Assembly (NCBI RefSeq): GCF_013407925.2
Contig: NZ_CP060201.1
Coordinates: forward strand, 1,364,001 to 1,428,000
Length of the DNA: 64,000 nt
Direction of reading: 5' to 3'
DNA from: Pseudomonas protegens
Lineage (GTDB): Bacteria; Pseudomonadota; Gammaproteobacteria; Pseudomonadales; Pseudomonadaceae
In this document: positions 38,309 to 58,131 of the stretch, one piece after another
Layout: each line of letters opens with the position of its first letter
How positions within the stretch are numbered: the stretch's first letter is position 1
Position numbers and translations under genes: made by a program
Notes under the pieces: model-generated
Database searches by the model: none
Told to the model about the DNA's origin: nothing
The model's input: only the letters and a program-made list of their open reading frames with translations

Positions 38309-38346
38309 CAAAAAAATAGCGCTCAAGATTACACCTTGAGCGCTAT
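38309..38346 (-). terminator. Strong intrinsic terminator between the ketoacyl synthase and maf genes
   Basis: Perfect 12-bp stem ATAGCGCTCAAG/CTTGAGCGCTAT with a 7-base loop, followed on the minus strand by seven T. This is the cleanest terminator in the window, yet it ends only about 23 bases before the maf ATG, leaving little room for a separate maf promoter. Confidence 0.85.
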
Positions 38347-38368: not shown

Positions 38369-39295
38369 TCAGGCGCGATAGATGATCGCCGAGCCCCAGG
38401 ACAGGCCAACGCCGAAACCACTCAAGGCCACGCGCTTCCAGCTGGAATCGAACATGTGTTTTTCCAGCAACAGCGGAATGCTCGAGGAAACCGTATTGCC
38501 GGTTTCCACCATGTCCTTGATGAACTTGTCCGGATCGCCCTCAAAGCGCCGGGCCACGGCATCGACAATGGCCGCACTGCCCTGGTGAATGCAGAACGCA
38601 TCGATGTCGTCCGGCTGCAAGCCCGACTCGGCCAGCAACTCATGCAGATGCGCCGGCACCTTGAGCAACGCGAAGTTGAACACCTGACGACCGTTCATGA
38701 AGAACACGCCATCGCTGACCTTCAGGTGCGGAGCGCCGGAACCGTCGGTGCCGAACTTGGCCTTGCCCAATTGCCAGGTCGCCCCCTCGCCGAGCCAGGT
38801 GGCGGTGGCGGCATCGCCGAACAGCATGGTGGTGTTGCGGTCTTCGGGATCGACGATCTTCGAATAGGGATCGGCGGTGACCAACAGGCCGTTCTTCAGG
38901 CCCGCGGCTTCCATGAAGCCCTTGATGGCATAGATGCCGTAGACATACCCGGAACAGCCCAGGGAGATATCGAAAGCGGCGACGGTGGTCGGCAGGCCCA
39001 ATTTGTCCTGCACGATCGCGGCGGTGTGGGGCAACCCTTCCTCGTCACCGTTCTGGGTGACCACGATCAATACGTCGACGGCTTCGCGCTTGAGATCCGG
39101 GTTACTGGCGAACAGGGCATTGACCGCTTCAACACACAGATCGGAGGTTTCTTGTCCGGCGTCTTTGCGCGGCAGAAAAGCAGAACCGATCTTGCCCAGG
39201 ATGAAGTCTTCATCCTTGGCGAATTTTGCACCTTGTGCGTAATTGTCCACGCCGGCTACAGGCACGTAGCTCGCAATGCTTTTTATGCCAATCAT
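38369..39295 (-). CDS. Ketoacyl-ACP synthase III family protein (FabH-like)
   Basis: 308 residues, starting MIGIKSIASYVPVAGVDNYA. The thiolase-fold catalytic triad is intact: Cys114 (SLGCSGYVYG), His237 (CIHQGSAAI) and Asn267 (ETGNTVSSS). KAS III enzymes condense an acyl-CoA with malonyl-ACP or, in some branches, transfer acyl groups. Here it lies between pseI and maf, so it may supply an acyl group for the flagellar glycan rather than housekeeping lipid. That use is inferred. It ends in a strong terminator, and a stem-loop occupies its leader. Confidence 0.9.
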   Translation of the reverse strand: MIGIKSIASYVPVAGVDNYAQGAKFAKDEDFILGKIGSAFLPRKDAGQETSDLCVEAVNALFASNPDLKREAVDVLIVVTQNGDEEGLPHTAAIVQDKLGLPTTVAAFDISLGCSGYVYGIYAIKGFMEAAGLKNGLLVTADPYSKIVDPEDRNTTMLFGDAATATWLGEGATWQLGKAKFGTDGSGAPHLKVSDGVFFMNGRQVFNFALLKVPAHLHELLAESGLQPDDIDAFCIHQGSAAIVDAVARRFEGDPDKFIKDMVETGNTVSSSIPLLLEKHMFDSSWKRVALSGFGVGLSWGSAIIYRA

Positions 39296-39526: not shown

Positions 39527-40579
39527 CTATTCGACGAATGCCCAGTCCAGTGCGGTACCGCGCTTGAGGGCCTGACGCGCGCGACGGCCAAGCAGCGCGT
39601 CGTAGTGCTTGGGAGCCAGCCCCAGCCCGGGACGGATGGCCCGTACATTGTCGGCGCTGAACAGCTCTCCGGCCTGCATGTCGCGGGTGACATACAGCGA
39701 CCGACGGTAAACCAGTGATTTGCTCTCGGCCTGGGTGGCGCCGTAGCGCACCTGCCCCATGGCCTGCCAGGCGCGTTCGGTTTCCAGCACCAGGCTGGCC
39801 AGTTCCGCAGGCTCCAGAGAGAAGCTGGCATCGACCCCGCCAGCGGCGCGATCCAGGGTGAAGTGCTTTTCGATCACCGTGGCACCCAGCGCCACCGCCG
39901 CCACCGAGACGCCAACCCCCATGCTGTGGTCGGACAACCCCACTTCGCAGCCGAACAGCTCCCGCAGATGGGGAATGGTCAGCAGATTGCTGTTCTCCGG
40001 CGAGGCCGGGTAGGTGCTGGTGCACTTGAGCAGCACCAGGTCACGGCAGCCTGCTTCACGGGCAGCGCGGACACTTTCGTCCAGCTCGGCGATGCTGGCC
40101 ATGCCGGTGGAGATGATCAGCGGCTTGCCGGTGGCGGCGACCCGGCGAATCAACGGCAGATCGGTGTTTTCAAAGCTGGCGATCTTGTAGGCAGGAACGT
40201 CAAGGCTTTCAAGAAAATCCACCGCGCTTTCATCGAACGGCGTGGAAAACGCCAGCATGCCCAGGGCCTTGGCCCGGGCAAAAATCGGCTGGTGCCATTC
40301 CCAGGGCGTATGGGCCTTCTGGTACAGGTTGTATAACGATGAGCCAGCCCAGAGGCTATCCGCATCCTTGATGAAGAATTCGCCCTGATCCAGATCCAGG
40401 GTCATGGTGTCCGCAGTGTAGGTCTGCAATTTCAGGGCATGGGCACCGGCCTTGGCCGCCGCCTCGACAATCTGCAAGGCCACATCCAGTGACTGATTAT
40501 GGTTGCCGCTCATCTCGGCGATGATCAACGGCGCATGGCCGGCGCCCACAGGGCGCGAACCGATCTTGAAGCTAGTCAT
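39527..40579 (-). CDS. pseI: Pseudaminic acid synthase PseI (NeuB family)
   Basis: 350 residues. It begins with the NeuB core (PLIIAEMSGNHNQSLDVALQ) and contains LKCTSTYPASPENSNLLTIP and GLSDHSMGVGVSVAAVALGA, closer to PseI than to sialic or legionaminic synthases. A C-terminal SAF domain (about 290-350) starts SLVYRRSLYVTRDMQAGELF. It condenses 6-deoxy-AltdiNAc with phosphoenolpyruvate. It overlaps pseGH by 8 bases and is the last gene of the glycan operon. A legionaminate synthase is the main alternative, but the pathway genes point to Pse. Confidence 0.93.
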   Translation of the reverse strand: MTSFKIGSRPVGAGHAPLIIAEMSGNHNQSLDVALQIVEAAAKAGAHALKLQTYTADTMTLDLDQGEFFIKDADSLWAGSSLYNLYQKAHTPWEWHQPIFARAKALGMLAFSTPFDESAVDFLESLDVPAYKIASFENTDLPLIRRVAATGKPLIISTGMASIAELDESVRAAREAGCRDLVLLKCTSTYPASPENSNLLTIPHLRELFGCEVGLSDHSMGVGVSVAAVALGATVIEKHFTLDRAAGGVDASFSLEPAELASLVLETERAWQAMGQVRYGATQAESKSLVYRRSLYVTRDMQAGELFSADNVRAIRPGLGLAPKHYDALLGRRARQALKRGTALDWAFVE

Positions 40580-42077
40580 CTAGATGTTCCTTCAATACTC
40601 GGGTGAATTCGCAGATGCCCTGGTGATAGCCGGCTCGGCGAAACAAATGCAGCGACACCTGATTCTCTGCCATGACCTGCGCCCGCAGGCGCCGTACATC
40701 AGGCCAATGGCGCACCAGGCAAGCCTCGCCCTGCTCCAGCAACGCAGCCCCCCAGCCCAGCCCCAGGCGCTCGGCAAACAGGTAGATCGAAACTTCGGCC
40801 TGGACGCCTTGGCGGTCATAACGCAGCACCCCCACCGGCCCCTCGGGCACTTGCGCAATCAGCAACAAGCGCTGCGGATCCTTCAGACAAGCCTCCAGCC
40901 AACGCAGATGGTCCGGCCACTCAAGCGTCCCGGGCTGCTGCGACCAACGCCTGACAAGCTCGGCATTGCGCCCGTCGAACAGCAGGCGGGCATCATCCAG
41001 GGTCGCCGGACGCAAGCGCAGCGCGGCGGCAAACAACGCCGCCGCCACGCGCTGCACGCCCAGGCCATCCACCAGCTCGCGGGCCCGCCGGGCCAGGCTA
41101 TGACGCAACCATGGGTTGTCCAGCAGCAGGCTCACGGCCTGCCGCACCTGCTCCACACTGACCTGCTCACAAGGCCCCAGATACAAGTGGGCGCCGGCTT
41201 CGGCCAGCAAGCGCGCATTGAGCTCCTGGTTGCCGGCCACGGTGATGCACAGCGTGGGCACGCCCAGCACCGCGCGTTCCCAACTGGTACCGCCCCCGGC
41301 GCCCAGGCACAGATCGGCCTCGGCCAGCAGAGCGGCAAAATTCTTCACATAGCTGTGCAGGCGCCAGTGCGGCCGCTCGGCGGCCAAGGCCTGCATGGCC
41401 TGCCAGTCCGGATTGCCGCTGCCGGCGACGAAATCCACCTGCAACTGGTGGAAATCCGCCAGCGCCAACATGGCCTTGTGGGTCTGGCCGGCGGCATCGA
41501 AGCCACCGAAGTTCACCAGCACCCGCCGCGGCTGGGGGCGAATCGGGATAGCGGGACGTCGGAACTCGTCACGCAGCAAGGCGAAATGCGGGCCGAACAG
41601 GGTCCGGCAGTGCTCGTCATGCAACCCGGCATAAGCCTGGGCGCTGCCGCTGAAATTCTGGTCCAGCAACAGGTCCACGGCGTGCCTACGGTTGGCCAGG
41701 TCGTCGATGGCGGCGATCCTCGGCGCCCACTGCCGAGCCGCACACTGCCATTGATGATCAAGGCCGTAATGGTCCACCAGCACCCAATCGAAGGCTGGCT
41801 CAGTGGCCAGTGCCTGCTGCAACGCGGCGATGTCCGCCTGCCAGGGCAAGGGCGTCTCGATCCCCAACTCGGGATGCTCGTCGGCATAGCGTTCTGGCAA
41901 TTCGAAAGTCTGGAACCCCTCGGCCTGCAGCGCCTCCAGGCGATGCCCGGGCAGACGCCGACAGGCAAATGCCACGCTGGCGCCCTGGCGGCGCAGCTCC
42001 TGAGCCAGGGTCAGGCAGCGGGCCACATGGCCACTGCCGATGGCCGGCGAAGCGTCGGCGCGAATCAGCACCCTCAC
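40572..42077 (-). CDS. pseG: PseG-PseH fusion: UDP-sugar hydrolase plus N-acetyltransferase
   Basis: 501 residues from GTG 42077. Residues 1-about 350 are PseG (UDP-6-deoxy-AltdiNAc hydrolase): RADASPAIGSGHVARCLTLA has His17, the catalytic base of Campylobacter PseG, and the GT-B donor loop reads LGAGGGTSWERAVLGVPTL. Residues about 353-495 are a GNAT domain starting LRLRPATLDDARLLFDGRNA, the fold of PseH, which acetylates the 4-amino sugar. No separate pseH occurs in the cluster, so the fusion supplies both steps. It overlaps pseF by GTGA. Confidence 0.9.
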   Translation of the reverse strand: MRVLIRADASPAIGSGHVARCLTLAQELRRQGASVAFACRRLPGHRLEALQAEGFQTFELPERYADEHPELGIETPLPWQADIAALQQALATEPAFDWVLVDHYGLDHQWQCAARQWAPRIAAIDDLANRRHAVDLLLDQNFSGSAQAYAGLHDEHCRTLFGPHFALLRDEFRRPAIPIRPQPRRVLVNFGGFDAAGQTHKAMLALADFHQLQVDFVAGSGNPDWQAMQALAAERPHWRLHSYVKNFAALLAEADLCLGAGGGTSWERAVLGVPTLCITVAGNQELNARLLAEAGAHLYLGPCEQVSVEQVRQAVSLLLDNPWLRHSLARRARELVDGLGVQRVAAALFAAALRLRPATLDDARLLFDGRNAELVRRWSQQPGTLEWPDHLRWLEACLKDPQRLLLIAQVPEGPVGVLRYDRQGVQAEVSIYLFAERLGLGWGAALLEQGEACLVRHWPDVRRLRAQVMAENQVSLHLFRRAGYHQGICEFTRVLKEHLDD

Positions 42078-42781
42078 TCCAGCTCTCCCCCGGCCTTGAG
42101 CGCGGCGTACAGGTATTCAGCGCGCCGCCAGTCCTCTTCGGTATCGATGTCTTGCACCAGGTGCCGGGGCAGGATCACCGGCAGGCTGCGAGGCGAGAAC
42201 AGCGCCTCACCTTGCAGCCAGGCCTGGCTCCGCCCCCAATAGAACTGCGCCGCATCCTGATAGGCCGCTGGCAGATCCTGGGAACGGCTCTGGCGAAACT
42301 GCGGGTACAGCGCATCGAGCGCCCCTTGCTCATCGAGGATCAAAGCCCGTTGCACGGGAAAGCCGAAACCGCACACCGAAAAGGCAAACCCCTTGTCCGG
42401 GTGCCGCATCAATATCTCCAGCCCCTGACGCAGATAACGCGCCTGCAGCAAGGGCGCCGTGGCGTAGATACAACAGGCGTACTCGAATTCCCGCCCCAGC
42501 TCCCGCAACGCCTGCAAGGCATGGACAATCACCGCCGCGGTGCCCGTGAAGTCATCCGCCAGGGCCTGCGGCCGGATAAAGGGCACCTCGGCCCCACAGG
42601 CGAGCGCCAACTCCGCGATCTCCGGGTCATCGGTACTGACCACCACCTGCCGGAACAACCCGCAACTCAGCGCCTTGTCGATGGAGCGCGCGAGCATCGG
42701 CACGCCATCGAAGGCCTTGAGGTTCTTGCGTGCAATACGCTTGCTGCCGCCTCGGGCAGGAATGATGGCAACCGCACTCAC
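42074..42781 (-). CDS. pseF: CMP-pseudaminic acid synthetase PseF
   Basis: 235 residues from GTG 42781, which overlaps the pseC stop as GTGA; an upstream TTG would add 8 residues. It begins SAVAIIPARGGSKRIARKNL, the CMP-NeuA/PseF signature, and has VVSTDDPEIAELALACGAEV. It activates pseudaminic acid with CTP for the Maf transferase. The stop overlaps the pseG start in the same way. Confidence 0.93.
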   Translation of the reverse strand: MSAVAIIPARGGSKRIARKNLKAFDGVPMLARSIDKALSCGLFRQVVVSTDDPEIAELALACGAEVPFIRPQALADDFTGTAAVIVHALQALRELGREFEYACCIYATAPLLQARYLRQGLEILMRHPDKGFAFSVCGFGFPVQRALILDEQGALDALYPQFRQSRSQDLPAAYQDAAQFYWGRSQAWLQGEALFSPRSLPVILPRHLVQDIDTEEDWRRAEYLYAALKAGGELE

Positions 42782-43944
42782 GATGCTAACGACTCCTGCA
42801 CCCAACGCCGTACCTGCTGGACAATGAAATCCTGTTCGCTGTCACTCAACCCGGGATAAATCGGCAGGCTGATGGCTTCTGCGTAATAGCGCTCGGCCTG
42901 GGGAAAGTCCCCTTGAGCAAAACCCAGCGCCTGGTAATACGGCTGCAGATGCACCGGAATGTAATGCAGATTGACCCCAACTCCCGACTCACGCAGCCCC
43001 TCGAAAACCTGTCGATGAGAGTGCTTCAGTCCTTCGAGCTGCAACCGCACCACATACAGATGCCAGGCCGACTGTGCATCGGCCTGGGGCAGCGTCAATG
43101 GCAGGTCCTGCAATAGGCGCTGATAGCGAGCCGCCAGATATTGGCGGCGGCGCACAAAGTCATCCAGCCTGTTCAACTGGGACAAACCCAGCGCAGCCTG
43201 AAGATCGGTCATCCGATAGTTGAAGCCCAGCTCCACCTGCTGGTAGTACCAGGGACCATGACTGGCCTCGCTCATCTGTGCCGGATCACGGGTCATGCCA
43301 TGGCTGCGCAGGCGTCGCAGGCGATCCGCCAGTTCGGGGCGATTGGTCAGAACCATCCCGCCCTCGGCGCTGGTAATGATCTTCACCGGATGAAAGCTGA
43401 ACACGGTCATCGCGGCAAACTCACCGCAACCGACTGGCCGGCCCGCATAGCGCGCGCCCACCGCGTGGGAGGCATCCTCGATCACGGTGAAGGCATATCG
43501 CTCAGCCAACTGCGCCAACCGGCGCATGTCGCAGCTCTGCCCGGAAAAAGCCACCGCCACCACCACCTTGGGCAACCGCCCACAAGCCTGGGCAGCCTGC
43601 AGCTTGTCGGCCAGGGCCTCGACATCAAGATTCCAGGTCTGCGGATCGATATCGACAAAATCCACATCCGCGCCGCAGTAACGCCCACAGTTGGCCGACG
43701 CCAGAAAGGTATTGGGGCTGGTCCACAGCCAATCACCTGGCCCCAGGCCGGCCGCCAGGCAAGCGATATGCAAAGCCGCCGTGGCATTGCAGACGGCCAC
43801 GCCATGGGCCGCCTCGCAGCGCGCGGCCATGGCCTGCTCAAAGGCTTCGATGGCCGGCCCCTGAGTCAGCCAGTCGGACTGCAGAACCGCCACGACGGCA
43901 TCGATATCCGCCTGGTCGATACTCTGGCGACCGTAAGGAATCAT
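42778..43944 (-). CDS. pseC: UDP-4-keto-6-deoxy-N-acetyl-altrosamine aminotransferase PseC
   Basis: 388 residues of the DegT/DnrJ/EryC1 PLP family. PLP-lysine Lys188 lies in FSFHPVKIITSAEGG, with EDASHAVGA (157-164) and an N terminus YGRQSIDQADIDAVVAVLQS typical of PseC. It converts the PseB product to UDP-4-amino-4,6-dideoxy-AltNAc. It overlaps pseB by 4 bases and pseF by 4 bases. Confidence 0.94.
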   Translation of the reverse strand: MIPYGRQSIDQADIDAVVAVLQSDWLTQGPAIEAFEQAMAARCEAAHGVAVCNATAALHIACLAAGLGPGDWLWTSPNTFLASANCGRYCGADVDFVDIDPQTWNLDVEALADKLQAAQACGRLPKVVVAVAFSGQSCDMRRLAQLAERYAFTVIEDASHAVGARYAGRPVGCGEFAAMTVFSFHPVKIITSAEGGMVLTNRPELADRLRRLRSHGMTRDPAQMSEASHGPWYYQQVELGFNYRMTDLQAALGLSQLNRLDDFVRRRQYLAARYQRLLQDLPLTLPQADAQSAWHLYVVRLQLEGLKHSHRQVFEGLRESGVGVNLHYIPVHLQPYYQALGFAQGDFPQAERYYAEAISLPIYPGLSDSEQDFIVQQVRRWVQESLAS

Positions 43945-44942
43945 GCCGAAATTCCGTCATGCAACTCGGCAATCTGCCCCACCGAGAGAAAGTGCGGATT
44001 GGTATCGGAGCGGTACTCGAAATCCTCGGCGACCGAAACGCCCCGCTCCCCCACGCCATCAACGGCAAAGTCGACATTGACGCTGGTAAAGCGAATGGAC
44101 GGTTGAATCGTGTAGTGATCGGCAAACTCCAGGGTCATGCGCGCATCATCCAGCGGCACCATCAACTCATGGAGCTTCTCTCCTGGGCGGATGCCGACCT
44201 GCTTGTGCGGCAGATGGGCGGCCATGCCTGACGCCAGGTCGACAATGCGAATCGAAGGAATCTTGGGCACGAAGATCTCACCGCCGTGCATGCGGGCAAA
44301 GCTATCCAGAACAAACTGCACACCGTGATCCAGCGTGATCCAGAAACGCGTCATGCGCTCATCGGTGATCGGCAGTTCCCTGGCTCCCTCGGCAATCAGC
44401 TTGCTGAAAAACGGCACGACCGAACCACGGGAGCCGGCGACATTGCCGTAGCGCACCACGGCAAACCGGGTTGGCTGCTCACCGGCGATGTTGTTCGCCG
44501 CCACAAACAGCTTGTCCGACAGCAGCTTGGTGGCGCCGTACAGGTTGATCGGACTGGCCGCCTTGTCGGTGGACAAGGCCACGACCTTTTTCACCCCGTT
44601 GTCGATGGCCGCGGCGATGATGTTCTCCGCACCATTGACGTTGGTGCGAATGCATTCCGTGGGGTTGTATTCGGCGGCCGGCACCTGTTTCAGTGCTGCG
44701 GCATGCACCACATAGTCGATGCCGCGCATGGCCTGGCGCAAACGCTCGGCATCGCGCACATCACCAAGGAAGTAACGCATGCAGGGCGCATTGAAGGTCT
44801 GCTGCATTTCGTACTGCTTGAGCTCGTCGCGGGAAAACACCACAACCCGCTTGGGCTGGTACTGCTCCAGCAGACGTCGAATGAAGCTGCGCCCGAACGA
44901 ACCGGTGCCACCGGAAATGAAAATCGACTTACCGTTGAACAT
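43941..44942 (-). CDS. pseB: UDP-GlcNAc 4,6-dehydratase (5-inverting) PseB
   Basis: 333 residues, a short-chain dehydrogenase. NAD(P)-binding GGTGSFG at 11-17, then STDKAASPINLYGATK with Asp126, Lys127 and Tyr135 matching the FlaA1/PseB active site. It dehydrates UDP-GlcNAc and inverts C5, the committed step of pseudaminic acid synthesis. The start lies 10 bases after the stop of a glycosyltransferase gene. Confidence 0.95.
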   Translation of the reverse strand: MFNGKSIFISGGTGSFGRSFIRRLLEQYQPKRVVVFSRDELKQYEMQQTFNAPCMRYFLGDVRDAERLRQAMRGIDYVVHAAALKQVPAAEYNPTECIRTNVNGAENIIAAAIDNGVKKVVALSTDKAASPINLYGATKLLSDKLFVAANNIAGEQPTRFAVVRYGNVAGSRGSVVPFFSKLIAEGARELPITDERMTRFWITLDHGVQFVLDSFARMHGGEIFVPKIPSIRIVDLASGMAAHLPHKQVGIRPGEKLHELMVPLDDARMTLEFADHYTIQPSIRFTSVNVDFAVDGVGERGVSVAEDFEYRSDTNPHFLSVGQIAELHDGISA

Positions 44943-44952
44943 GACTGAATCC

Positions 44953-47889
44953 TTATCCGAGCAACTGAGCCCAGTTCACCGCGCCAGCAACGCCCAGGGC
45001 AAAGCCCTTGCCGCTCAATGAAAGGTTCGGGTTATAGGCACTATCCTGGGCAAAGCGCGCCGCCCACTTGTCCCGCAGCGCCGCTGCGGCTTGTGGATCC
45101 TGCGCCAGGGTGCCCGGATGCTGAATCTGCGCCTGGGGAGTCACTACGGTGAGGTATCCGGCATCGGAGGCTTTCAGGCACAGGTCGACATCGGCGAAGG
45201 CCTGGTCGAAATGCTCTTCGTCCAGTCCGCCCACCGCCTCGAACAGGGTCTTGGCGATCATCAGGCAGGCACCGGACACCGCCGAGTAGTTCTTCTCCAC
45301 CCACAGGCTGTTCATGTAGCCCGCGGCGTCCTTGGCCTCGCCGGCAAAAGCTGCGCCCAGGTGACCATTGAGGCCGAGGATCAAGCCAGCCTGGGTGGTC
45401 TCTGCGCTGGCATTCACCAGTTTGGCGCCGACAATCCCCACTTCCGGCCGTTGGGCCTGGTTGAGCAGGCTTTCGAGCCAATTGGCATTGACCACTTCAG
45501 CCTCCGCCGAGAGCAGCACCAGGTACTCGCCACGCGCTTCCTGGCAAGCCAGGTTGTGCAGGGCCGACGTGCTCAGGCGCTGGCCGCTGCGCAGCACGCG
45601 AATGCGCTCGCCACGGTTCTCCAGGCTGGTCAGCCAACTATCAAGCGCGACATTCTGACTGTGGTTCTCGGCAATCAGCACTTCGTAGCGCTGGTAGCGG
45701 GTACGCTGCAGCACGCTGACCAGGCAGCGCTGCAGTTCGGCGAAGTTGTCCTGGCTGGGCAGGATGATCGACACCAGCGGCCGCTCGGCATGCTGATAAT
45801 CGATCTGATAGGTGCCCGGCTGCGCCGAGCTGACCTGGGCGCGGTAGCCCCGCGCGGCCAGATGCCGGGTCAGCACCTGAGCCTCTTCAGCCGCGGCTGC
45901 GCGCCCCGGCTCCCGGCAGATCAGCAACGGCTCGGCCAGATGCGCCAATCCACCAAGGCCGCCGTCCTGGATCAGTTTCAACAACAGATCGAACTCCAGC
46001 GCCTGCTTCAGATCCCGGGAAAAGCCACCGACCTGCTGCAAAGCTTCGCGCTGCAGCAGCCAGTGCCGCGCCATCAGCGACGGGGCACTCTGTAGCTGAT
46101 CCAGATTGACCCCAGGGCGGAACACCGCACTCAAGGTGAAATCCTCTCGACGCTGGACCTCATCCATCGCCACCGCACGGATGCCTTCAGCGCCCAACAG
46201 TTCCAGGCTGGCTCGCAACAACCCGCTGCGGGTGAACTGATCACCTGCTTCGGCCAGCAGCACCCAGTCGGCGCGGGACTGCTCGACGATCTGATTAAGC
46301 CGCTCGACGTAGTTGCTCTCGGTCACCTTGACGAAGTGCAGGGTGTCCTCGGCCCGGGTGGTCGCCGGCAAGTCGCCGGTGGTCAGCACCACCAGCTTGA
46401 ACGCCCTGAAATGGCTGGCTACCAGGCTGTCGAACGTGGCTTGCAGCTTGACCATGTCGGCATCGAGGTCGAGCAGCAGGATCTGCACCTGAGGGCCGCC
46501 AGCATGGCGCGCCAGATGAGCATTGATGGCCTTCAACTGAGCTGGTTGCGGCTCACGCGCCTGCAGCCATTCAAGCAGTCGGCCCGACTGGGTAGCACTG
46601 AGCAGTTCCAGGCTGTCCGGTCCCGGCACCGACTCCAGACGCTCAGCCCAGGCCTGCAGCTTGCGTGCCTCATCGGGTTCGTCACTGTCGCGCATCGATT
46701 CGGCCAGGCGCTTTACAACCCGGCGATTGAACAGATTCAGGGTCAAGGCTTCCCAGAGCCGACTGCGCAGGGTCTGCACGGTGTCATTGGGGTGCTCGCG
46801 CATCAGCTCTTCCTGACGCAGTAGCACGCCTTCCAGCTCCTGAAGCTGAACCCGACCCGCCGGCATGGCATGCATGAGGAATTCGAACTGGGTCAACAGA
46901 TCGAACATCGGCTGGTTATAGAACGGCATCTCGACGAACTGCTCAGGAGCGAAAGAACGTATCGGCTCAGCCCCCACCTCGACCCAGGCCGAACGGAAAA
47001 TGATCGCGCCCTTGAGGGAGCGTCTCGACAGCAGGCAATCGGCCAAGGCGGCAAAACTGTCCAGGGCGATCTGCTTCACCTGCTGCGGGTCACGACCACT
47101 GAAGCCCGTGGGCAGCGAGGCCAGGAACTCGGCAAAAGCCTCGCGTTGCGCCATCGACCGGGCGTCCTGGTAGGCCAGCACCGTCAACACATCGGTGTCG
47201 TGATCCGAAACCCCGTAATTGGCTTCCCGCACGGCAAAGGGAATTGGCAGGATACGCGCCTTGGCGCAGGCCAGCAGGTAGAAGCTATGGCCAATTTCCT
47301 GCCACTCGAAACTGACTCCCGGCGGCAGTTGGTTGTACCACTGGCGCAGCAGATCGGTGCGCGTCACCGCATAGAACGGCGGCAGGAACTGCCCCATGAA
47401 ACTCATCACCCGATCTTCGGGATCATCAGAGGCGTAGTCCTCCATCACCCGACGATCGCGGCGGTAGAAGTTGGTTTCCGAAGCCCGAGCCAGGTACATC
47501 ATTCCGTACCCATGGCACACACCGTAATCCGGGTTGGCTTCGAGAAACTCCACCGATGCGGTCAGCGCATCATGGATCAGGAAGTCGTCATCGGCGGCAA
47601 ACACCATGTAAGGGGTAGTGACTTGGTTCACACCGTAGGTGAGCTTGTCCTGCAACCCCTTGTAGTTGAACTGCGGAAGGTGCCGGTAGTCGACCTGAGG
47701 GTAGCGCTCGGCCAATGCCTGATTCGCCTCCAGGGAGGAATCCAGAACCAGGATCGAACAGGGGTAAGTACTGTAGTACTGCAAGGTGCGTTGCAGGAAC
47801 GCCTTGCGGTTGTGGGTCATCACCACGAGGGTGAAACGTTCGCTCATCGGCGTTGCGCTGTTGTTCATCACTTTGTCTTCACCCCACAT
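44953..47889 (-). CDS. Two-domain glycosyltransferase (TIGR00180-like plus GT2)
   Basis: 978 residues from ATG 47889 (MWGEDKVMNNSATPMSERFT); a 185-residue extension upstream is a shadow of the next gene. The N-terminal GT-A domain (about 20-330) starts FTLVVMTHNRKAFLQRTLQY and has a DDD metal motif near 95-97. The C-terminal GT2 domain (about 700-930) has PLVSIILPSQDNFAELQRCL and NWLESLLNQAQRPEVGIVGA. A helical region joins them. It probably builds the flagellar glycan, adding the CDP-sugar or linking residues. Its C-terminal part is clearly related to the middle domain of the protein at 54505-58074. Confidence 0.85.
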   Translation of the reverse strand: MWGEDKVMNNSATPMSERFTLVVMTHNRKAFLQRTLQYYSTYPCSILVLDSSLEANQALAERYPQVDYRHLPQFNYKGLQDKLTYGVNQVTTPYMVFAADDDFLIHDALTASVEFLEANPDYGVCHGYGMMYLARASETNFYRRDRRVMEDYASDDPEDRVMSFMGQFLPPFYAVTRTDLLRQWYNQLPPGVSFEWQEIGHSFYLLACAKARILPIPFAVREANYGVSDHDTDVLTVLAYQDARSMAQREAFAEFLASLPTGFSGRDPQQVKQIALDSFAALADCLLSRRSLKGAIIFRSAWVEVGAEPIRSFAPEQFVEMPFYNQPMFDLLTQFEFLMHAMPAGRVQLQELEGVLLRQEELMREHPNDTVQTLRSRLWEALTLNLFNRRVVKRLAESMRDSDEPDEARKLQAWAERLESVPGPDSLELLSATQSGRLLEWLQAREPQPAQLKAINAHLARHAGGPQVQILLLDLDADMVKLQATFDSLVASHFRAFKLVVLTTGDLPATTRAEDTLHFVKVTESNYVERLNQIVEQSRADWVLLAEAGDQFTRSGLLRASLELLGAEGIRAVAMDEVQRREDFTLSAVFRPGVNLDQLQSAPSLMARHWLLQREALQQVGGFSRDLKQALEFDLLLKLIQDGGLGGLAHLAEPLLICREPGRAAAAEEAQVLTRHLAARGYRAQVSSAQPGTYQIDYQHAERPLVSIILPSQDNFAELQRCLVSVLQRTRYQRYEVLIAENHSQNVALDSWLTSLENRGERIRVLRSGQRLSTSALHNLACQEARGEYLVLLSAEAEVVNANWLESLLNQAQRPEVGIVGAKLVNASAETTQAGLILGLNGHLGAAFAGEAKDAAGYMNSLWVEKNYSAVSGACLMIAKTLFEAVGGLDEEHFDQAFADVDLCLKASDAGYLTVVTPQAQIQHPGTLAQDPQAAAALRDKWAARFAQDSAYNPNLSLSGKGFALGVAGAVNWAQLLG

Positions 47890-47939
47890 AAAACCTTCCC
47901 CACCACCGGCCACACGTCCGGAACTGCAACCATTGATAT

Positions 47940-48677
47940 TCAGCGAACCCGACGCAGGTAACCGTCCGGTGCCACGGTGATCAGCAGCTTGTTCTGCATC
48001 TGCTGGTCGATCTCGAAATCGCGGTTCTCCTCCAGATAGGCCCAGACCGCGGTTTTTGGGTTGTCGCCCGGGCCCCAGGGACGATCCGGGAAGAACTCCG
48101 GCGGCATATCCTCGACCACGGTGTCCATGACCACGCAGTAGCTGTCGACCGACACCAGCGGCGCATACAGGCGCAGCTCTTCGAGCACGTGCTCGTGGGT
48201 GTGGTTGGAGTCCAGAACCAGGATCACCTTCTTGCCCGCCGCCGCGGCCCGCACCTGCTCGGCGATGGCCGGATCGATGCTCGAGCCTTCGATCATGCGG
48301 ATGCGCTTGCTCATCGGATGCTGCTCGATGGCTTCGCGGTTGTGCGGGCGGATGTCCAGGTCGATGCCCAGCACTTCGCCATGACCCTGCAGCTCCAGCA
48401 GCGAGGCGTAGTAGATGATCGAACCGCCATGGGCGATGCCGCATTCGATCACCAGGTCCGGCTTGACCCGCCAGATGATCTCCTGCATCGCCATCATGTC
48501 CTGGGGCAGCTGGATGATCGGCCGGCCCATCCAGGAAAAGTGATAGCTGTACTTGTGCGCCGCGGATTCATTGAAAAAATCGCGGGCCAGGCCCTTGAGC
48601 TTTTCATCCTGGCCCTGGGCGCTGATCTGCGCCTGGCATTCTTGTTCAAAGGCTTGAATGACGTTGTGCTCGGTCAT
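47940..48677 (-). CDS. Cephalosporin-hydroxylase-family (CmcI-like) protein
   Basis: 245 residues. A Rossmann methyltransferase-like core shows DLVIECGIAHGGSIIYYASL, LGIDLDIRPHNREAIEQHPM and ILVLDSNHTHEHVLEELRLY. CmcI-family members in glycan clusters are usually SAM-dependent O-methyltransferases (as in rhamnosyl O-methyltransferase). There is no signal peptide or membrane segment. It lies between a C-methyltransferase-like gene and a glycosyltransferase with short gaps (20 and 50 bases). Substrate unknown; O-methylation of a flagellar sugar is a reasonable inference. Confidence 0.8.
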   Translation of the reverse strand: MTEHNVIQAFEQECQAQISAQGQDEKLKGLARDFFNESAAHKYSYHFSWMGRPIIQLPQDMMAMQEIIWRVKPDLVIECGIAHGGSIIYYASLLELQGHGEVLGIDLDIRPHNREAIEQHPMSKRIRMIEGSSIDPAIAEQVRAAAAGKKVILVLDSNHTHEHVLEELRLYAPLVSVDSYCVVMDTVVEDMPPEFFPDRPWGPGDNPKTAVWAYLEENRDFEIDQQMQNKLLITVAPDGYLRRVR

Positions 48678-48697
48678 GTTCGGTTCTCAATGGCAAA

Positions 48698-49768
48698 TTA
48701 GCTGAACGAAGCGCTGTCAACGGCGTGATAGACATAACGGCCGTCGGTCATGCGCTTGATTTCTTCGAGGTAGTTGGAATTCATCACGAACAGGTTGGCG
48801 CCCGCCGGCAGTGCCTGCATGGCTTCTTGTGGCGAGGACACGCGCATGCCACTGAGCGGCAGGTAGCGGCCCTGTTTGGCCGGGTTGATATCGACGACCT
48901 GATCCACTGCCACGCCCGCGCGTTGCAAAAACAGCGAATAGATCACGCCCTTGGACGATGCGCCCCAGATCCCGGCGGCGGTGTGCGGCGCCGACTGGAT
49001 GATGCGCTTGGCAGACTCGATGCTGGCGGTGAAATCCGCCGGCATCTGCAGCGGCTGCAGCGGCGCCGGCAATGTCGACTGCAAGCTGCCCAGGTCCGCC
49101 ACCACATACAGGTATTGGCCGCCGAACAGATGCCCGGCTTCATGCACGGTGCCGAACATGCGCTGCAGGTCTTCTAGACGGAAGTAGTTGACGTGCTCAT
49201 AGAACACGTCGAACCAGGCGCGATGTTCAAGGATCCAGTCGAAACACGGCACTTCGATGTAGATCTGCCCGCCCTGGTTGGCATCGGCAATCTCCGCCAG
49301 AAAGGCCAGCGGATCGGCAATATGCTCCAGCACATGCCGCAGCACGATGGCCTCGGCCGCCAGCCCCAGGCCGCGGGTGAACGGCGCCTTGATCACCTCG
49401 GGGTTGCTCCCCTCGTAGGCCGGGTCAATGCCGGTGATGGCATAGCCCTTGCCGCGCAACAGCTCAAGGAAATAGCCCTTGCCGCAACCGACCTCGATCA
49501 GTTCCTGGCCCTTGAAGTGGCGGGCGATGATGCCCTCGACGTCCGTCAGGTGCTGCTGGAACTGCGCCGAGTGAGCCTGCTCGTTCTGATAGTCGCTGTC
49601 GTAGCTGAGCTTGTCGGCATCGAAGGCCTGATTGAAGATCAGCCCGCTCTGCAGGTCCTGCACCAGCACGATGTCCGCAGACGCCGAGGCCCGGGCACTC
49701 TGGGCATCGGCGAAGGTGCGGTTCTGCAGCACCGGCAAGTCGGCAACCCGATACAACTCATGCGCCAT
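48698..49768 (-). CDS. SAM-dependent C-methyltransferase-family protein lacking the zinc motif
   Basis: 356 residues. The SAM-binding motif I is LIEVGCGKGYFLELLRGKGY (about 90-110). The C-terminal Methyltransf_14-like domain has GIWGASSKGVIYSLFLQRAG and DINPAKQGRYLPLSGMRV, shared with the neighbour at 50621-51847. Unlike that protein it has no Cys-rich N terminus. It may methylate the same or another sugar, or have lost C-methylation chemistry. It overlaps the preceding SDR gene by 11 bases. Confidence 0.82.
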   Translation of the reverse strand: MAHELYRVADLPVLQNRTFADAQSARASASADIVLVQDLQSGLIFNQAFDADKLSYDSDYQNEQAHSAQFQQHLTDVEGIIARHFKGQELIEVGCGKGYFLELLRGKGYAITGIDPAYEGSNPEVIKAPFTRGLGLAAEAIVLRHVLEHIADPLAFLAEIADANQGGQIYIEVPCFDWILEHRAWFDVFYEHVNYFRLEDLQRMFGTVHEAGHLFGGQYLYVVADLGSLQSTLPAPLQPLQMPADFTASIESAKRIIQSAPHTAAGIWGASSKGVIYSLFLQRAGVAVDQVVDINPAKQGRYLPLSGMRVSSPQEAMQALPAGANLFVMNSNYLEEIKRMTDGRYVYHAVDSASFS

Positions 49769-50624
49769 GTTCGGCTCCTGTTATGTCCAACAAGCGCTGG
49801 TTCAAGCCCCAGAACGCCATGGGTTCGTAGTCCGGATACGGGTAATGCCCCAGGTTCAGGCGGATCGCCGCGCCGCGCTGAGCAATACGCTGCTCCACCA
49901 GGGAACGCACGGCTATCGGCCGGCCACTGGAGCAATTGACCACCCCGGAAAATCCTCGCTGCTCGAGCAACGCCGCCAGGTAGCCGGCGGCCGCCTCGAT
50001 GGCCAGGTAGTCCCGCAGTTGTTCGCCGCCGGACATGTTGAAAACCTCGTCACCGGCATCGATCGCTCGGTCCAGCGCCGCCAGCAGGCTCTTGGGGTTC
50101 TGCCCCGGGCCATGCAGGTAGAATAGCCGCGCCCACTGCAAACTGAAGGGCAACTGCTGCTGCAGAGCTTGCAGAAACAGATGCAGGCTGTGCTTGGCCA
50201 AACCGTAGGGATTGCTCGGGCGCGCCTCGACCTCTTCACTCAAGGGCCCGCTCTGCATGCCGTACTCGAAGCAGGTGCCGGTGACCAGCACCTGGCTCAC
50301 CCCGGCCTCGACCACCGCCTTGATAAAGCGGTAGTCGGCCATCAGGTTGTGTTCCAGATGAAACAGCGCCTGATAGTTGGGCAGCCCCGGCCAGGCCAGA
50401 TGGGCCAAGGCATCGACGCCATCCACCAGCGCCGCGATATCGAGCTGTGGGGCGTGCACGTCCAGGGCGCGAAACTCCACCGCGTCGAACCAGGACAGCT
50501 GTCGCGCCTTGTCAGCATCCCGCGCCACCGCGCGCACGCGGCATCCCCGGGCCAGCAAGGCCGCGACCAGATGCCGACCGACAAAGCCGGTGGCGCCGGT
50601 GACCAGCACCGTCCTGCCCTTCAC
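49758..50624 (-). CDS. NAD-dependent epimerase/reductase of the SDR family
   Basis: 288 residues from GTG 50624, which overlaps the upstream stop as GTGA; a longer frame into the neighbour was rejected. The Rossmann motif is VLVTGATGFVGRHLVAALLA, and catalytic Tyr/Lys lie in NPYGLAKHSLHL, with TGTCFEYG before it. In a CDP-hexose pathway it is the likely 4-ketoreductase that ends synthesis after epimerisation and C-methylation. Substrate is inferred from context only. Confidence 0.85.
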   Translation of the reverse strand: MKGRTVLVTGATGFVGRHLVAALLARGCRVRAVARDADKARQLSWFDAVEFRALDVHAPQLDIAALVDGVDALAHLAWPGLPNYQALFHLEHNLMADYRFIKAVVEAGVSQVLVTGTCFEYGMQSGPLSEEVEARPSNPYGLAKHSLHLFLQALQQQLPFSLQWARLFYLHGPGQNPKSLLAALDRAIDAGDEVFNMSGGEQLRDYLAIEAAAGYLAALLEQRGFSGVVNCSSGRPIAVRSLVEQRIAQRGAAIRLNLGHYPYPDYEPMAFWGLNQRLLDITGAEHGA

Positions 50625-51847
50625 AGCAGCTGCAACTCGGGCACGGCGATCACGAAGCGCCCGCCCCATTGCCGCACCTGGGCCAATTGCTCGCTGACTT
50701 CGCCGAGCAGGTTCCACGGCAGGACCAGCACATAGTCCGGACGCTCCTGATCGATACGCTCGGGCGCGACCACGGGAATACGGCTGCCCGGCAGGTACTT
50801 GCCCTGCTTGTGCGGGCTGGCATCGGCAACCCAGGCCAGGAGGTCGGGCTTGACCCCGGCGTAATTGAGCAAGGTATTGCCCTTGGCCGCCGCGCCATAA
50901 CCCACCACGCGCTTGCCTTCGGCCTTGGCCTGGAGCAGGAAACGCAGCAGCTCGTGCTTGATCCGCTCGGCGGCCGGCGCCAGGGTCTGGTAGTACTCGG
51001 GGGTACTCACCCCGGCCTGCTGTTCCAGCTGCAGCTGACGCGCCACGCTGTCCAGTACGGGACGGCGCTGGCCATCGACACGCTGCACGAACACCCGCAG
51101 CGAGCCGCCATGGGTCGACAGGGTTTCGACATCGAAGATTTCCAGGCCGTTGCGCTGGCACAAGCCCTGGACCGCGGTCAGCGACAGGTAGGAGTAGTGC
51201 TCGTGGTACAGGGTGTCGAACTGCTGCCCGGCCATCAGGGTCAGCAGCTGAGGAAACTCGAAAGTCGCCACGCCCGTCGGCTTGAGCAAAGTAGCGAAAC
51301 CGCAGAGGAAATCGTTGATGTCCGGCACGTGGGCCAGCACGTTGTTGGCCGCCATCAGGTCCGCAGCCCAGCCCTCCTCCAGCAACTGCGCGGCAGTGCC
51401 ACGGCCGAAGAACAGCTCACGGATCTGTAGGCCCTTGGCCCGCGCCGCCTGGGCGGTGCTGTGGGTCGGCTCGACCCCGAGGCAAGGGATGTCACGCTGG
51501 GCCACGTACTGCAGCAGGTAGCCATCATTGGCCGCCACTTCCACCACCCGGCTCCGGGCATCCAGGCCGAAACGCTCGACCATCTGCGCCACGTAGTCCC
51601 GGGCATGCTGCAGCCAGGTACTGGAGAACGAGCTGAAATAGGCGTAGTCGGCGTCAAACAAGTGGTCGGCGCGGGTGTAGTCCTCGGTCTGTACCAGCCA
51701 GCATTGCTGGCAGACCTGGACCTTGAGCGGCACCCATTGCTCGGCCTGATCCAATTGCTCGGCCCGCAGGTAAGCGTTGGACGGCGGCGAAGTGCCCAAG
51801 TCGATCAGAGGCAGGCTCAGGCAGGCGCCACAACCGCGGCAATTCAT
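50621..51847 (-). CDS. Zinc-containing NDP-4-ketohexose C-methyltransferase-like protein
   Basis: 408 residues. The N-terminal zinc-binding region has Cys3, Cys6, Cys9 and Cys46, Cys49 (CRGCGAC, VCQQCW), as in TylC3/EvaC-type sugar 3-C-methyltransferases. SAM motif VVEVAANDGYLLQYV follows, then a C-terminal Methyltransf_14 domain with GYGAAAKGNTLLNYAG and ASPHKQGKYLPGSRIPVV. Family members methylate C3 of 4-keto-deoxysugars. Next to rfbF-rfbG it predicts a branched 6-deoxyhexose. It overlaps the epimerase-like gene by ATGA. Confidence 0.88.
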   Translation of the reverse strand: MNCRGCGACLSLPLIDLGTSPPSNAYLRAEQLDQAEQWVPLKVQVCQQCWLVQTEDYTRADHLFDADYAYFSSFSSTWLQHARDYVAQMVERFGLDARSRVVEVAANDGYLLQYVAQRDIPCLGVEPTHSTAQAARAKGLQIRELFFGRGTAAQLLEEGWAADLMAANNVLAHVPDINDFLCGFATLLKPTGVATFEFPQLLTLMAGQQFDTLYHEHYSYLSLTAVQGLCQRNGLEIFDVETLSTHGGSLRVFVQRVDGQRRPVLDSVARQLQLEQQAGVSTPEYYQTLAPAAERIKHELLRFLLQAKAEGKRVVGYGAAAKGNTLLNYAGVKPDLLAWVADASPHKQGKYLPGSRIPVVAPERIDQERPDYVLVLPWNLLGEVSEQLAQVRQWGGRFVIAVPELQLL

Positions 51848-52404
51848 AGACTCACTCCAGCGAAAGCAGCATCGAGCAAGGGGTGGCTGGCATCCCGGGT
51901 CGACAGATTATTGACAGGCAACGGCCAGTTGATCGCCAGGCGCGGGTCCAGCACCGACAACCCGGCCTCGTGCTCGGGGGCGTAGTCGGCGCTGTGCAGG
52001 TAGAGCAGTTCGGCATCCTCGCTCAGGGTCTGGAAACCATGGGCGAAGCCCGCCGGCAACAACAGGCTGCGGCCGTCGCCCGCCCTCAGGTGCTCAGCGT
52101 GCCAGTGGAGGAACGTCGGCGACTCGGGGCGCAGGTCCACTGCCACGTCCCAGACCTCGCCCCGCAGACAGGTGATGAGCTTGGCCTCGGGACGCGCGGC
52201 GGTTTGATAGTGCAGGCCACGCACACTGCCCCGTTCCCGGGTGCAGGAGTGGTTGATCTGACGGATATGAAACGGCTGGCCGAAGGCACTCAGGCTGCCT
52301 TCGCAGAACAGGCGGGAAAAGTGCCCACGCTGGTCCTCGAAACGCTTGTGGCGTACCTCGAACAACCCGGCCAATGGCAGGGCCAGTACCTGGAACTCGC
52401 TCAC
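51844..52404 (-). CDS. RmlC-like sugar 3,5-epimerase
   Basis: 186 residues from GTG 52404, which overlaps the rfbG stop as GTGA; the 33-residue upstream extension is shadow sequence. It has the dTDP-sugar epimerase cupin: FEDQRGHFSRLFCEG, QINHSCTRERGSVRGLHYQT and AVDLRPESPTFLHWHAEHL. It would isomerise CDP-4-keto-6-deoxyglucose at C3 and/or C5 before methylation and reduction. Family known; nucleotide carrier inferred from rfbFG. Confidence 0.9.
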   Translation of the reverse strand: MSEFQVLALPLAGLFEVRHKRFEDQRGHFSRLFCEGSLSAFGQPFHIRQINHSCTRERGSVRGLHYQTAARPEAKLITCLRGEVWDVAVDLRPESPTFLHWHAEHLRAGDGRSLLLPAGFAHGFQTLSEDAELLYLHSADYAPEHEAGLSVLDPRLAINWPLPVNNLSTRDASHPLLDAAFAGVSL

Positions 52405-53483
52405 AGCGCCCCCCGGTACAGATTCAATTGCCCGAGGGTCACGGCGCGCATGTCCGCGCCGCTCTTCCAGGCCAGGTGCCAGTCCAGGGTTTGCACCAGG
52501 CACTGCTCCAGGGTCCAGCGTGGCATCCAGCCCAGCAACTGGCGGGCGCGACTGCTGTCCAGGCGCAACAGGCCGGCTTCGTGCAACTCACTGGGCTCGA
52601 TCAGCAGCCCCGGGGCTTCGGGCCAGTGCCGGGCCAGCAGCCCCACCACGTCACCGACGCTGCACATGTCCTGCTCGCCGGGGCCGAAGTTCCAGGCCCC
52701 CGCGTATTGCGGACCTTGCTCATACAAACCAGCCGCCAGTTGCAGGTAGCCGGCCAACGGCTCCAGGGCGTGCTGCCAGGGGCGCACCGCCTGGGGAAAA
52801 CGCAGGGTCACAGGTTCATCGGCGGACCAGGCCCTGAGCACATCGGGAATCAGCCGCTCGGGCGCGAAGTCGCCCCCACCCAGGACGTTACCGGCGCGGG
52901 CCGTGGCCAGGGCCAGGCCGTGCTCGGCGTAACGCTCGGCGGCAAAGAACGAGGAGGCATAGGACTGGGCCAGCAGCTCGCAACAGGCCTTGCTGCTGCT
53001 GTAGGGATCATGGCCACCCAAGGGTTCGTTTTCCCGATAGGGCCACAGCCATTCCTGATTGGCGTAGACCTTGTCGGTGGTCACCAGGACGCAGGCGCGC
53101 ACCCCACCGACCTGGCGGATCGCCTCCAGCAGGTTGAGGGTGCCCATGACATTGCTCGAGTAGGTTCCCAGCGGATCACGATAGGCTTCACGCACCAGGG
53201 GCTGGGCCGCCAGGTGCAGGACGATTTCCGGCTCGACCTGGGCGATCAGCTCCAGCAGGCTGCCCAGGTCCCGCAGGTCGCCACGATGATCATTGATCCC
53301 TTCGGCCACCCGGGCCAGTTCGAACAGGCTGGGCTCGGTACTCGGGTCCAGGGCGAAACCGCTGACCTCTGCGCCCAGGCTCTGCAGCCACAGGCTCAGC
53401 CAACTGCCCTTGAAGCCGGTATGGCCGGTCAGCAGGACCCGCTTGCCGCGCCAGAACTCCGGACTCAGTCCCACTGCTTCCAC
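52401..53483 (-). CDS. rfbG: CDP-glucose 4,6-dehydratase RfbG
   Basis: 360 residues, an extended SDR. NAD-binding [20 protein letters not shown], the active-site [20 protein letters not shown] and [20 protein letters not shown] match CDP-glucose dehydratase rather than RmlB. It forms CDP-4-keto-6-deoxyglucose from the RfbF product. It overlaps rfbF by 19 bases. No rfbH-type 3-dehydratase follows, so C3 oxygen is likely kept. Confidence 0.94.
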
Positions 53484-54238
53484 GGGGCCTCCCCGCTTTG
53501 CCAGAGCTGTTCCAGATGGTTCTTGTCGCGCAGGGTGTCCATCGGCTGCCAGAACCCACCGTGCTCGAATGCACGCAATTGCTGGTTCCTGGCCAGTTGC
53601 ATCAGCGGCTCGGCTTCCCAGGTGGTGCTGTCGCCATCGATGTAAGACAGCACCTTGGGCGACAACACGAAGAACCCGCCATTGATCCAGCCGCCGTCGC
53701 CACGGGGTTTTTCAGTGAACCCCAGGACCCGGTCGCCATCACGCTCCAGGGCGCCATAACGGCCAGGCGGTTGGACTGCAGTGACGGTGGCCAGCTTGCC
53801 GTGGGCCTTATGAAAATCCACCAGGGCGCCGATGTTCAGGTCGGACACACCATCGCCGTAGGTAAAGCAGAACGCCTCTTCATCCTGCAGGTAGCGCCCG
53901 GCACGGCGCAGACGACCGCCGGTCATGGTTTCCTCGCCGGTATCGATCAGCGTCACGCTCCAGGGCTCGCTGTAGTTCTGATGCACGTCCATGCGGTTGT
54001 TGCGCATGTCGAAGGTTACGTCCGAGGTATGCAGGAAGTAGTTAGCAAAGAAGTCCTTGATCGCGTAGCCCTTGTAGCCCAGGCAAATCACGAAATCATG
54101 AATCCCGTGAGCGGAATACTGCTTCATGATGTGCCAAAGAATTGGCTTGCCGCCGATCTCGATCATGGGCTTGGGCTTGAGGTGGGACTCTTCGCTGATT
54201 CGCGTACCCAGTCCACCAGCCAGAATTACGGCCTTCAT
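53465..54238 (-). CDS. rfbF: Glucose-1-phosphate cytidylyltransferase RfbF
   Basis: 257 residues from ATG 54238 ([20 protein letters not shown]), preceded by AGAGGA 5 bases away; a 32-residue upstream extension was rejected. Signatures include [39 protein letters not shown] and [15 protein letters not shown], characteristic of RfbF rather than RmlA. It makes CDP-glucose from CTP and glucose-1-phosphate. It is first of thirteen contiguous glycan genes, with a possible sigma-54 promoter about 140 bases upstream. Confidence 0.95.
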
Positions 54239-54374: not shown

Positions 54375-54390
54375 TGCAGGAAGTGCGCCA
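54375..54390 (-). promoter_or_regulatory. Candidate sigma-54 promoter of the glycan operon
   Basis: Minus-strand TGGCGC-N5-CTGCA with exact GG-N10-GC spacing, about 137 bases upstream of the rfbF ATG and after the terminator of the preceding gene. Two core positions differ from TGGCAC/TTGCA. If real, it puts glycan synthesis under FleQ/FleR and RpoN. The 266-base gap 54239-54504 otherwise holds only that terminator. Confidence 0.45.
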
Positions 54391-58074: not shown

Positions 58075-58131
58075 GGTTGCAAACTCTCGAGCGGCGAGCC
58101 CCGGCCAGAAAGACCAGGGCTGCAAAACCGC

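Follow-up and report, generated by a model that had tools for sequence, protein, structure and literature searches.

Here we analyse a 64,000-nucleotide stretch (hereafter the window) of the 6.82-Mb, single-contig genome of Pseudomonas protegens, in which an operon of 13 genes running from rfbF at position 54238 down to pseI at 39527 joins a cassette for a CDP-activated deoxysugar to one for CMP-pseudaminic acid, with both donor cassettes lying between flgL and fliC. The order along the minus strand is flgJ, flgK, flgL, a 1206-residue glycosyltransferase gene, rfbF, rfbG, an RmlC-like epimerase gene, the C-methyltransferase gene CMT1, a short-chain dehydrogenase/reductase (SDR) gene, a second methyltransferase gene (MT2), a CmcI-like gene, a second large glycosyltransferase gene, pseB, pseC, pseF, a fused pseGH, pseI, a KAS III-like gene, a Maf-like gene, fliC and fliD, where flgJ, flgK, flgL and fliD were assigned by eye and by position (Table 1). 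A preliminary description of this DNA had claimed 13 co-directional genes with a largest gap of about 50 bases, and both statements are borne out: all 13 lie on the minus strand and, with the starts of the RmlC-like and second glycosyltransferase genes set to 52404 and 47889, the junctions range from -28 to +50 nucleotides (nt), as compared with -28 to +20 nt before this correction. The operon is isolated by 266 nt upstream of rfbF and 231 nt downstream of pseI; the 1206-residue glycosyltransferase gene on one side and the KAS III-like, Maf-like and fliC genes on the other had not been listed before. Both rfbF (E ≤ 1e-10) and the NeuB family have a single match in the genome, the latter being pseI, and both matches fall inside the operon, so that the two donor pathways end at this locus.

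The gene families expected for a sugar of the vinelose type, namely those for CDP activation, 6-deoxygenation, C-methylation, epimerisation, ketoreduction and O-methylation, are all found in the operon, and the most likely product of the CDP half is a CDP-6-deoxy-3-C-methyl-hexose of this type, which is probably O-methylated. Among 11 listed solved relatives of CMT1, the 10 best are TcaB9, sugar 3-C-methyl transferase or D-mycarose 3-C-methyltransferase entries, and the TcaB9 residues Y76, H181, Y222, E224 and H225, catalytic residues that are mutated in structure entries for that enzyme, are all kept in 111 of the 111 CMT1 sequences that passed identity, coverage and no-stop filters; CMT1 is predicted to be a C3-methyltransferase, C3 being preferred over C5 by homology. 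The predicted model of MT2 aligns with the same three kinds of enzyme over nearly its full length, with no match to PF08421 (Methyltransf_13) and with the cysteines of the zinc-binding N-terminal domain absent from the alignment. Together, the CMT1 residues and the MT2 fold support the earlier proposal of a CDP-derived, probably branched deoxysugar. A CDP-3,6-dideoxyhexose product such as paratose or abequose was also considered and rejected, as the operon lacks RfbH: in a search of the operon proteins, no RfbH/E1 dehydrase was found, and the sole DegT-type protein is PseC (557.6 bits with the PseC model, 136.4 bits with the RfbH model against a cut-off of 423).

In the other half of the operon PseB, PseC, PseF, PseG and PseI each score over the curated NCBIfam cut-offs, whereas the PseH half of PseGH, a GNAT domain, reaches 38.8 bits with TIGR03585 against a cut-off of 93.1. 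Downstream, a strong terminator-like hairpin (14 pairs and a T-run; window 38316-38346) separates the KAS III-like gene from maf. Judged by position, both large glycosyltransferases are probably Fgt-like, and an RmlD over its cut-off is present in the genome. In the second glycosyltransferase, the identity ratio of residues 1-220 to the rest of the protein is 0.99 where the CDP cassette is present (85 loci) and 0.81 where it is absent (nine loci, among them L159, which has a different rfbF-rfbG cassette), a hint that these N-terminal residues may handle the CDP-sugar, weakened by the overlap of the two ranges.

Table 1. Features of the operon and its surroundings (window positions)
Feature	Position	Strand	Evidence and remarks
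1206-aa multi-domain glycosyltransferase	54505..58125	-	GT2-family domains; Fgt-like by position
sigma-54 (-24/-12)-like element	54375..54390	-	TGGCGC-N5-CTGCA; 152 nt upstream of rfbF; GG/GC core
rfbF, glucose-1-phosphate cytidylyltransferase	53465..54238	-	TIGR02623 465.6 bits (cut-off 300.25)
rfbG, CDP-glucose 4,6-dehydratase	52401..53483	-	TIGR02622 471.2 bits (cut-off 278.45)
RmlC-like sugar epimerase	51844..52404	-	PF00908 190 bits; GTG start
CMT1, sugar C-methyltransferase of TcaB9/MtmC kind	50621..51847	-	Methyltransf_13 + 23 + 14
SDR, predicted 4-ketoreductase	49758..50624	-	PF01370
MT2, second C-methyltransferase-fold protein	48698..49768	-	predicted model; zinc-binding cysteines absent
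CmcI/rhamnosyl O-methyltransferase-like	47940..48677	-	PF04989 318 bits; NF045824 114 bits (cut-off 400)
Second glycosyltransferase	44953..47889	-	N-terminal TIGR04440 domain, C-terminal GT2 domain
pseB	43941..44942	-	TIGR03589 563.7 bits
pseC	42778..43944	-	TIGR03588 557.6 bits
pseF	42074..42805	-	TIGR03584 315.1 bits
pseG-pseH fusion	40572..42077	-	TIGR03590 315.4 bits (PseG half)
pseI	39527..40579	-	TIGR03586 502.5 bits
FabH/KAS III-like, recurring flgL-fliC scaffold member	38369..39295	-	PF08541/PF08545
Maf/PseD-like flagellin modification protein, predicted pseudaminate transferase	37000..38286	-	PF01973; NF050051 42.5 bits (cut-off 670)
fliC, flagellin, predicted acceptor	35649..36500	-	PF00669/PF00700, NF009444

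The same gene set recurs at other Pseudomonas loci. In the named Pseudomonas loci, taken as the best 80 of 274 confirmed by CMT1, rfbG, the RmlC-like gene, CMT1, cmcI and the second glycosyltransferase gene are present at 80 of 80 and rfbF at 79, a recurrence which argues that the operon is no chance assembly; the closest named CMT1 proteins are those of Pseudomonas sp. Au-Pse12 (97% identity) and then of P. protegens (95-96%). Individual loci show variations of their own. At L048 (3686-7354) and L055 (4646-7294) a gene with RTX-like repeats, recognised by eye and encoding 1222 and 882 residues, respectively, lies between the upstream glycosyltransferase gene and rfbF. By the thresholds used, pseC occurs without a full pseB at 20 of the 80 named loci (L035, L036, L044, L053, L054, L059 and others), two of which, L048 and L073, do give pseB matches in another search; in six of six genomes of pseB-less loci that were searched genome-wide, no PseB over the cut-off was found, only a homologue of 314-330 bits. 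The PseI- and PseF-like proteins at L045 (19021-20972) and L061 (18066-19864) are just 48-53% identical and perhaps serve a different nonulosonate.

Natural enzyme replacements within these loci bear on the order of the predicted steps. Seventy-eight loci were classed (L039-L112 and four without CMT1, the set excluding L033-L038, the six closest relatives): SDR and MT2 are both present in 44, SDR occurs without MT2 in 10, a PseC-like aminotransferase replaces SDR in 20, and 4 are without CMT1. In the 80 named loci, SDR is missing from 20, where a DegT-type gene (PseC-like, 26-30%) occupies the same position. Identity to the window at loci without as opposed to with CMT1 is 66% vs. 85% for the RmlC-like protein, 67% vs. 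75% for SDR and 80% vs. 83% for MT2, and hardly changes for RfbF, RfbG and CmcI. Pairwise comparison of the 4 loci without CMT1, 15 of the 44 and 12 of the 20 gives, for the RmlC-like protein, 66% between loci with and without CMT1 and 91-92% among loci that have it, whichever C4 enzyme they carry; for CmcI it gives 70% across the SDR/aminotransferase divide (94% and 92% within the classes) and 90% across the CMT1 divide. Given the drop in identity where CMT1 is missing, the RmlC-like protein and SDR look adapted to a branched intermediate, and since CmcI splits by C4 enzyme it looks as if CmcI acts after the C4 step. Several points temper this picture: the classed loci are related genomes and not independent rows; exchange of rmlC, CMT1 and SDR as one block may have given the same pattern; CmcI is unshifted where C3 is unbranched, which is unexpected of an enzyme methylating the adjacent 2-OH; and CmcI differs slightly where MT2 is missing (84% vs. 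89%).

Upstream of rfbF, the operon carries a sigma-54-like element. With a GG/GC core and at most two mismatches to the sigma-54 consensus, a match is found in 77 of 77 upstream regions (those of the 80 named loci with sufficient upstream sequence) as compared with 3.5% of dinucleotide shuffles, and 81 of 94 such matches sit about 140-160 nt before rfbF. Across 78 aligned regions the 16 positions of the site have a mean conservation of 0.97 and the adjacent 20-nt blocks 0.82-0.90, while the whole 260-nt upstream alignment averages 0.55, partly since its far end does not align. No sigma-28 match was found in the gap before rfbF: the sole exact match in positions 29000-64000 of the window lies inside flgJ (62005), and a one-mismatch match precedes fliC (36608). 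Sigma-70-like promoters (1 found vs. 3.7 in shuffles) and terminator-like sites (12 vs. 13.6) were no commoner than in shuffled sequence. The recurrence of the element in all 77 regions supports flagellar-type control, and the operon probably starts from a sigma-54 promoter of its own; co-regulation with the flagellum, as claimed earlier, is probable. It is also important to note that such matches are not rare, with 11 on the same strand within positions 29000-64000, and that at divergent loci a match is found in 16 of 25 and none in nine, both Azotobacter loci included, which counts against this reading. Another kind of cassette, combining rfbF and rfbG with an aminotransferase gene, is seen at L159 and L161; a NeuB-like gene accompanies it, and the sequence before rfbF matches the sigma-54 consensus exactly.

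A counterpart of the CDP cassette is found in Azotobacter. CMT1 has a match in 14 of 148 family genomes, and genome G250 is almost certainly that of A. vinelandii: its CMT1 has the same sequence as a protein whose source is given as Azotobacter, it has three NifH matches over the cut-off, and its nif positions agree with those of the species. One of the three NifH-family matches, at G250:C1:4961279-4962100, has one in-frame TGA. The Azotobacter cluster comprises nine one-strand genes, for RfbF, RfbG, an RmlC-like protein, CMT1, a hexapeptide acyltransferase, SDR, CmcI, a PhyH dioxygenase and a TylF O-methyltransferase, and it lies near the flagellin gene with a 1257-residue glycosyltransferase gene in between; at L125 (1637-5410) this protein, which adjoins both, combines TPR, GT41 and GT2 domains. 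As rfbF has a single match in the genome, the cassette is the only recognisable CDP-glucose route there. The branched nucleotide sugar CDP-vinelose was reported in the 1960s from Azotobacter; vinelose is 6-deoxy-3-C-methyl-2-O-methyl-L-talose, and A. vinelandii presumably makes CDP-4-O-(O-methylglycolyl)vinelose. Given such a structure, the acyltransferase, the dioxygenase and the TylF-type methyltransferase would account for the acetyl, glycolyl and O-methylglycolyl stages. The P. protegens operon shares with the presumed CDP-vinelose route rfbF (in one copy), rfbG, the RmlC-like gene, CMT1, SDR, cmcI and proximity to fliC, whereas the three genes just named are additions of the Azotobacter cluster, which has no pse match in the stretch examined. 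It also has no counterpart of MT2, a point that does not favour the parallel, and an MT2 homologue (31%) occurs in a second Azotobacter-group genome (L126). We tentatively suggest, at slightly less than even confidence, that this cassette supplies the so far missing genes for CDP-vinelose and that these serve flagellin glycosylation, that Pseudomonas makes a relative of vinelose, perhaps with a second C-methyl group, and that flagellin surfaces are diversified as strains exchange the enzymes for the C3, C4 and O-methyl steps. On this reading the nine consecutive genes of A. vinelandii would correspond to nine steps that the pathway needs, among them acetylation, hydroxylation to glycolyl and O-methylation. 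A report on A. vinelandii DJ describes flagella genes and an rfbBDAC rhamnose cluster in that strain (PMC4465626).

Gene content and order, families, catalytic residues, the predicted MT2 fold, the promoter-like element and module separability are read directly from sequence, and from them we infer product identity and stereochemistry, step order, acceptor, glycan order and regulation as follows. The reading that we favour, with moderate confidence, is a modular flagellin glycosylation island in which one operon supplies two donors, a CDP-sugar of the vinelose kind and CMP-pseudaminic acid, for two parallel arms on flagellin. RfbF and RfbG would make CDP-4-keto-6-deoxyglucose, and CMT1 would branch C3 with a methyl group; epimerisation by the RmlC-like enzyme, probably at C5, would give an L-sugar, SDR would reduce C4, CmcI would add an O-methyl group, most likely at 2-O, and MT2 may add a further methyl, possibly as a second branch. 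PseB, PseC, PseH, PseG, PseI and PseF would yield CMP-pseudaminic acid, which the Maf arm would transfer as pseudaminate onto flagellin. The other glycan would be built by the two Fgt-type glycosyltransferases flanking the CDP cassette, probably as a rhamnose core with the branched sugar at its end. The flgL-fliC scaffold into which these modules fit occurs more widely than either donor cassette does: the slot between the two glycosyltransferase genes holds the CDP cassette and the slot from the second of these to the KAS III-like gene holds pse, the KAS III-like gene occurs with or without either cassette, the 1206-residue type of upstream glycosyltransferase is present also at loci without the CDP cassette, and L158 and L160 have only flgL, two glycosyltransferase genes, the KAS III-like gene and fliC, with neither cassette. 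At L164 the stretch from flgL to fliC contains the KAS III-like gene, and no glycosyltransferase match was found in it.

The preliminary description had instead proposed a single glycan, pseudaminate on flagellin carrying the CDP-derived branched deoxysugar. The one tight operon agrees with this, as does the co-occurrence of the modules in the 199 genus genomes surveyed, in counts that treat genomes as independent of kinship: CMT1 is found in 63, PseI over the cut-off in 80 and Maf in 65; PseI is present in 53 of the 63 CMT1 genomes and lies within 20 kb of CMT1 in 46 of those 53; and CMT1 and Maf occur together in 50 (Fisher p ~1e-21, ignoring relatedness). So strong an association, and the treatment of related genomes as independent, weigh against two separate arms. 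The modules do, however, come apart. Maf occurs only with PseI (65 of 65), whereas 13 of the 63 CMT1 genomes have no Maf, 10 of these also having no PseI over the cut-off, and 15 of the 65 Maf genomes have no CMT1. Stretches were examined in 13 of these 15 and in 7 genomes without Maf: in four of the 13 (L145, L146, L147 and L153) the rest of the CDP cassette is kept with CMT1 absent, and in the remaining nine the stretch shows pse genes and is without rfbF, the plain order glycosyltransferase, glycosyltransferase, pse being seen in L148, L149, L151, L152, L155 and L156. Furthermore, in four of the seven genomes where CMT1 and PseI are not within 20 kb (G039, G112, G124 and G160), the CDP cassette and Maf are near flgL with PseI elsewhere, and L038, L063 and L070 have no pse between the second glycosyltransferase and KAS III-like genes, with PseB elsewhere in their genomes. 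The comparison with other Pseudomonas flagellar loci proposed in the preliminary description has turned up the same cassette at named loci, with modules that are separable, and because Maf is found only with PseI and each donor module occurs alone, two parallel arms are likelier than a single chain, which is disfavoured by this separability and which we consider unlikely.

Nor does the CDP-sugar appear to serve lipopolysaccharide (LPS) or another polysaccharide from a flagellar position held by accident. CDP-deoxyhexoses are classic O-antigen sugars, related cassettes with CMT1 about 54% identical have no flagellar gene within ~10 kb at L133, L134, L137, L138 and L139, and 6 of 20 divergent regions are without a flagellar gene, which again counts for this alternative; it is nevertheless very unlikely in light of the recurrent sigma-54-like element, of the flgK, flgL, maf or fliC genes found at 61 of the 80 named loci (with a flanking glycosyltransferase at nine more and the other ten cut by contig ends on the flagellar side), and of flgK, flgL or fliC in the other 14 divergent regions, Azotobacter included. 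A noviose-like route, in which the RmlC-like protein would be a 3-epimerase and CMT1 or MT2 a C5-methyltransferase leading to a 5-C-methyl (gem-dimethyl) sugar, bears on the chemistry of the CDP arm. The top solved relatives of the RmlC-like protein are RmlC 3,5-epimerases (119.3 bits), with NovW, a 3-epimerase, near at 111.7 bits, and its TIGR01221 score of 150.6 bits falls slightly below the cut-off of 155.75; NovW, NovU and NovS form the same gene-type set, so that NovU-type C5-methyltransferases have the same gene neighbours; two C-methyltransferase-fold enzymes are present; and C3 was assigned to CMT1 by homology. Yet for CMT1 and MT2 alike, the named solved relatives methylate C3, and vinelose is a 3-C-methyl sugar in an organism with the same cassette, which leaves the noviose-like route distinctly unlikely.

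Several known systems resemble parts of the proposed two-donor island. Flagellin modification by Pse and Maf is known in Campylobacter and Aeromonas, and PseB, PseC, PseF, PseG, PseI and a Maf-like protein near fliC are common ground, whereas here PseG and PseH are fused, the PseH half is below the cut-off and the pathway is joined to a CDP one. The actinomycete noviose, mycarose and tetronitrose pathways likewise combine an RmlC-like epimerase, a TylC3/NovU-type C-methyltransferase and a ketoreductase, but act on dTDP-sugars for antibiotics rather than on CDP-sugars predicted for flagellin. In P. syringae (PMC3927599) the genes fgt1 and fgt2 are located upstream of fliC, serine receives rhamnose from Fgt1, and the chain terminates in a modified viosamine. 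The present locus resembles that one in its glycosyltransferases upstream of fliC, its KAS III gene (vioS there), a large transferase (VioT there, 1173 residues) and, by prediction, a terminal modified, O-methylated 6-deoxysugar; it differs in that dTDP-viosamine comes from a separate island there and the CDP-sugar from within the flagellar locus here, and in its C-methylation and Pse-Maf arm (PMC3927599). CmcI was also weighed as a possible orthologue of the P. syringae methyltransferase VioM: matches to CmcI (E ≤ 1e-20) occur in 66 of the 199 genus genomes surveyed, and CMT1 is carried by 60 of these 66. CDP-sugar genes in flagellar islands are described for Enterobacteriaceae (PMC4875605), with Erwinia and Pantoea islands cited in PMC13317340, and for Clostridium butyricum, where RfbH and RfbS point to paratose (PMC13317340); these islands share genes for CDP-4-keto-6-deoxyglucose with the present island, which, unlike that of C. 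butyricum, has C-methyltransferases and an operon without RfbH.

The flagellar glycosylation island is of a known kind, and the C-methylated CDP cassette with its Azotobacter counterpart is the new part. In a literature search that left most subscription journals outside its coverage, no paper on flagellin glycosylation in Pseudomonas protegens was found and the combination of a C-methylated CDP cassette with pse in a flagellar island was not met among the matches listed; a query joining rfbF, rfbG, flagellin and Pseudomonas gave no matching paper titled on Pseudomonas. Few studies appear to have dealt with flagellin glycans in the P. fluorescens group, no title among the matches listed being on them, and the island predicts a specific sugar pair. 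Natural single-enzyme changes, namely loss of the C-methyltransferase, replacement of the ketoreductase by an aminotransferase and loss of the second methyltransferase, provide a ready series for the enzymology of CDP-branched sugars. If the Azotobacter link is true, an old orphan nucleotide sugar would gain both its genes and a function.

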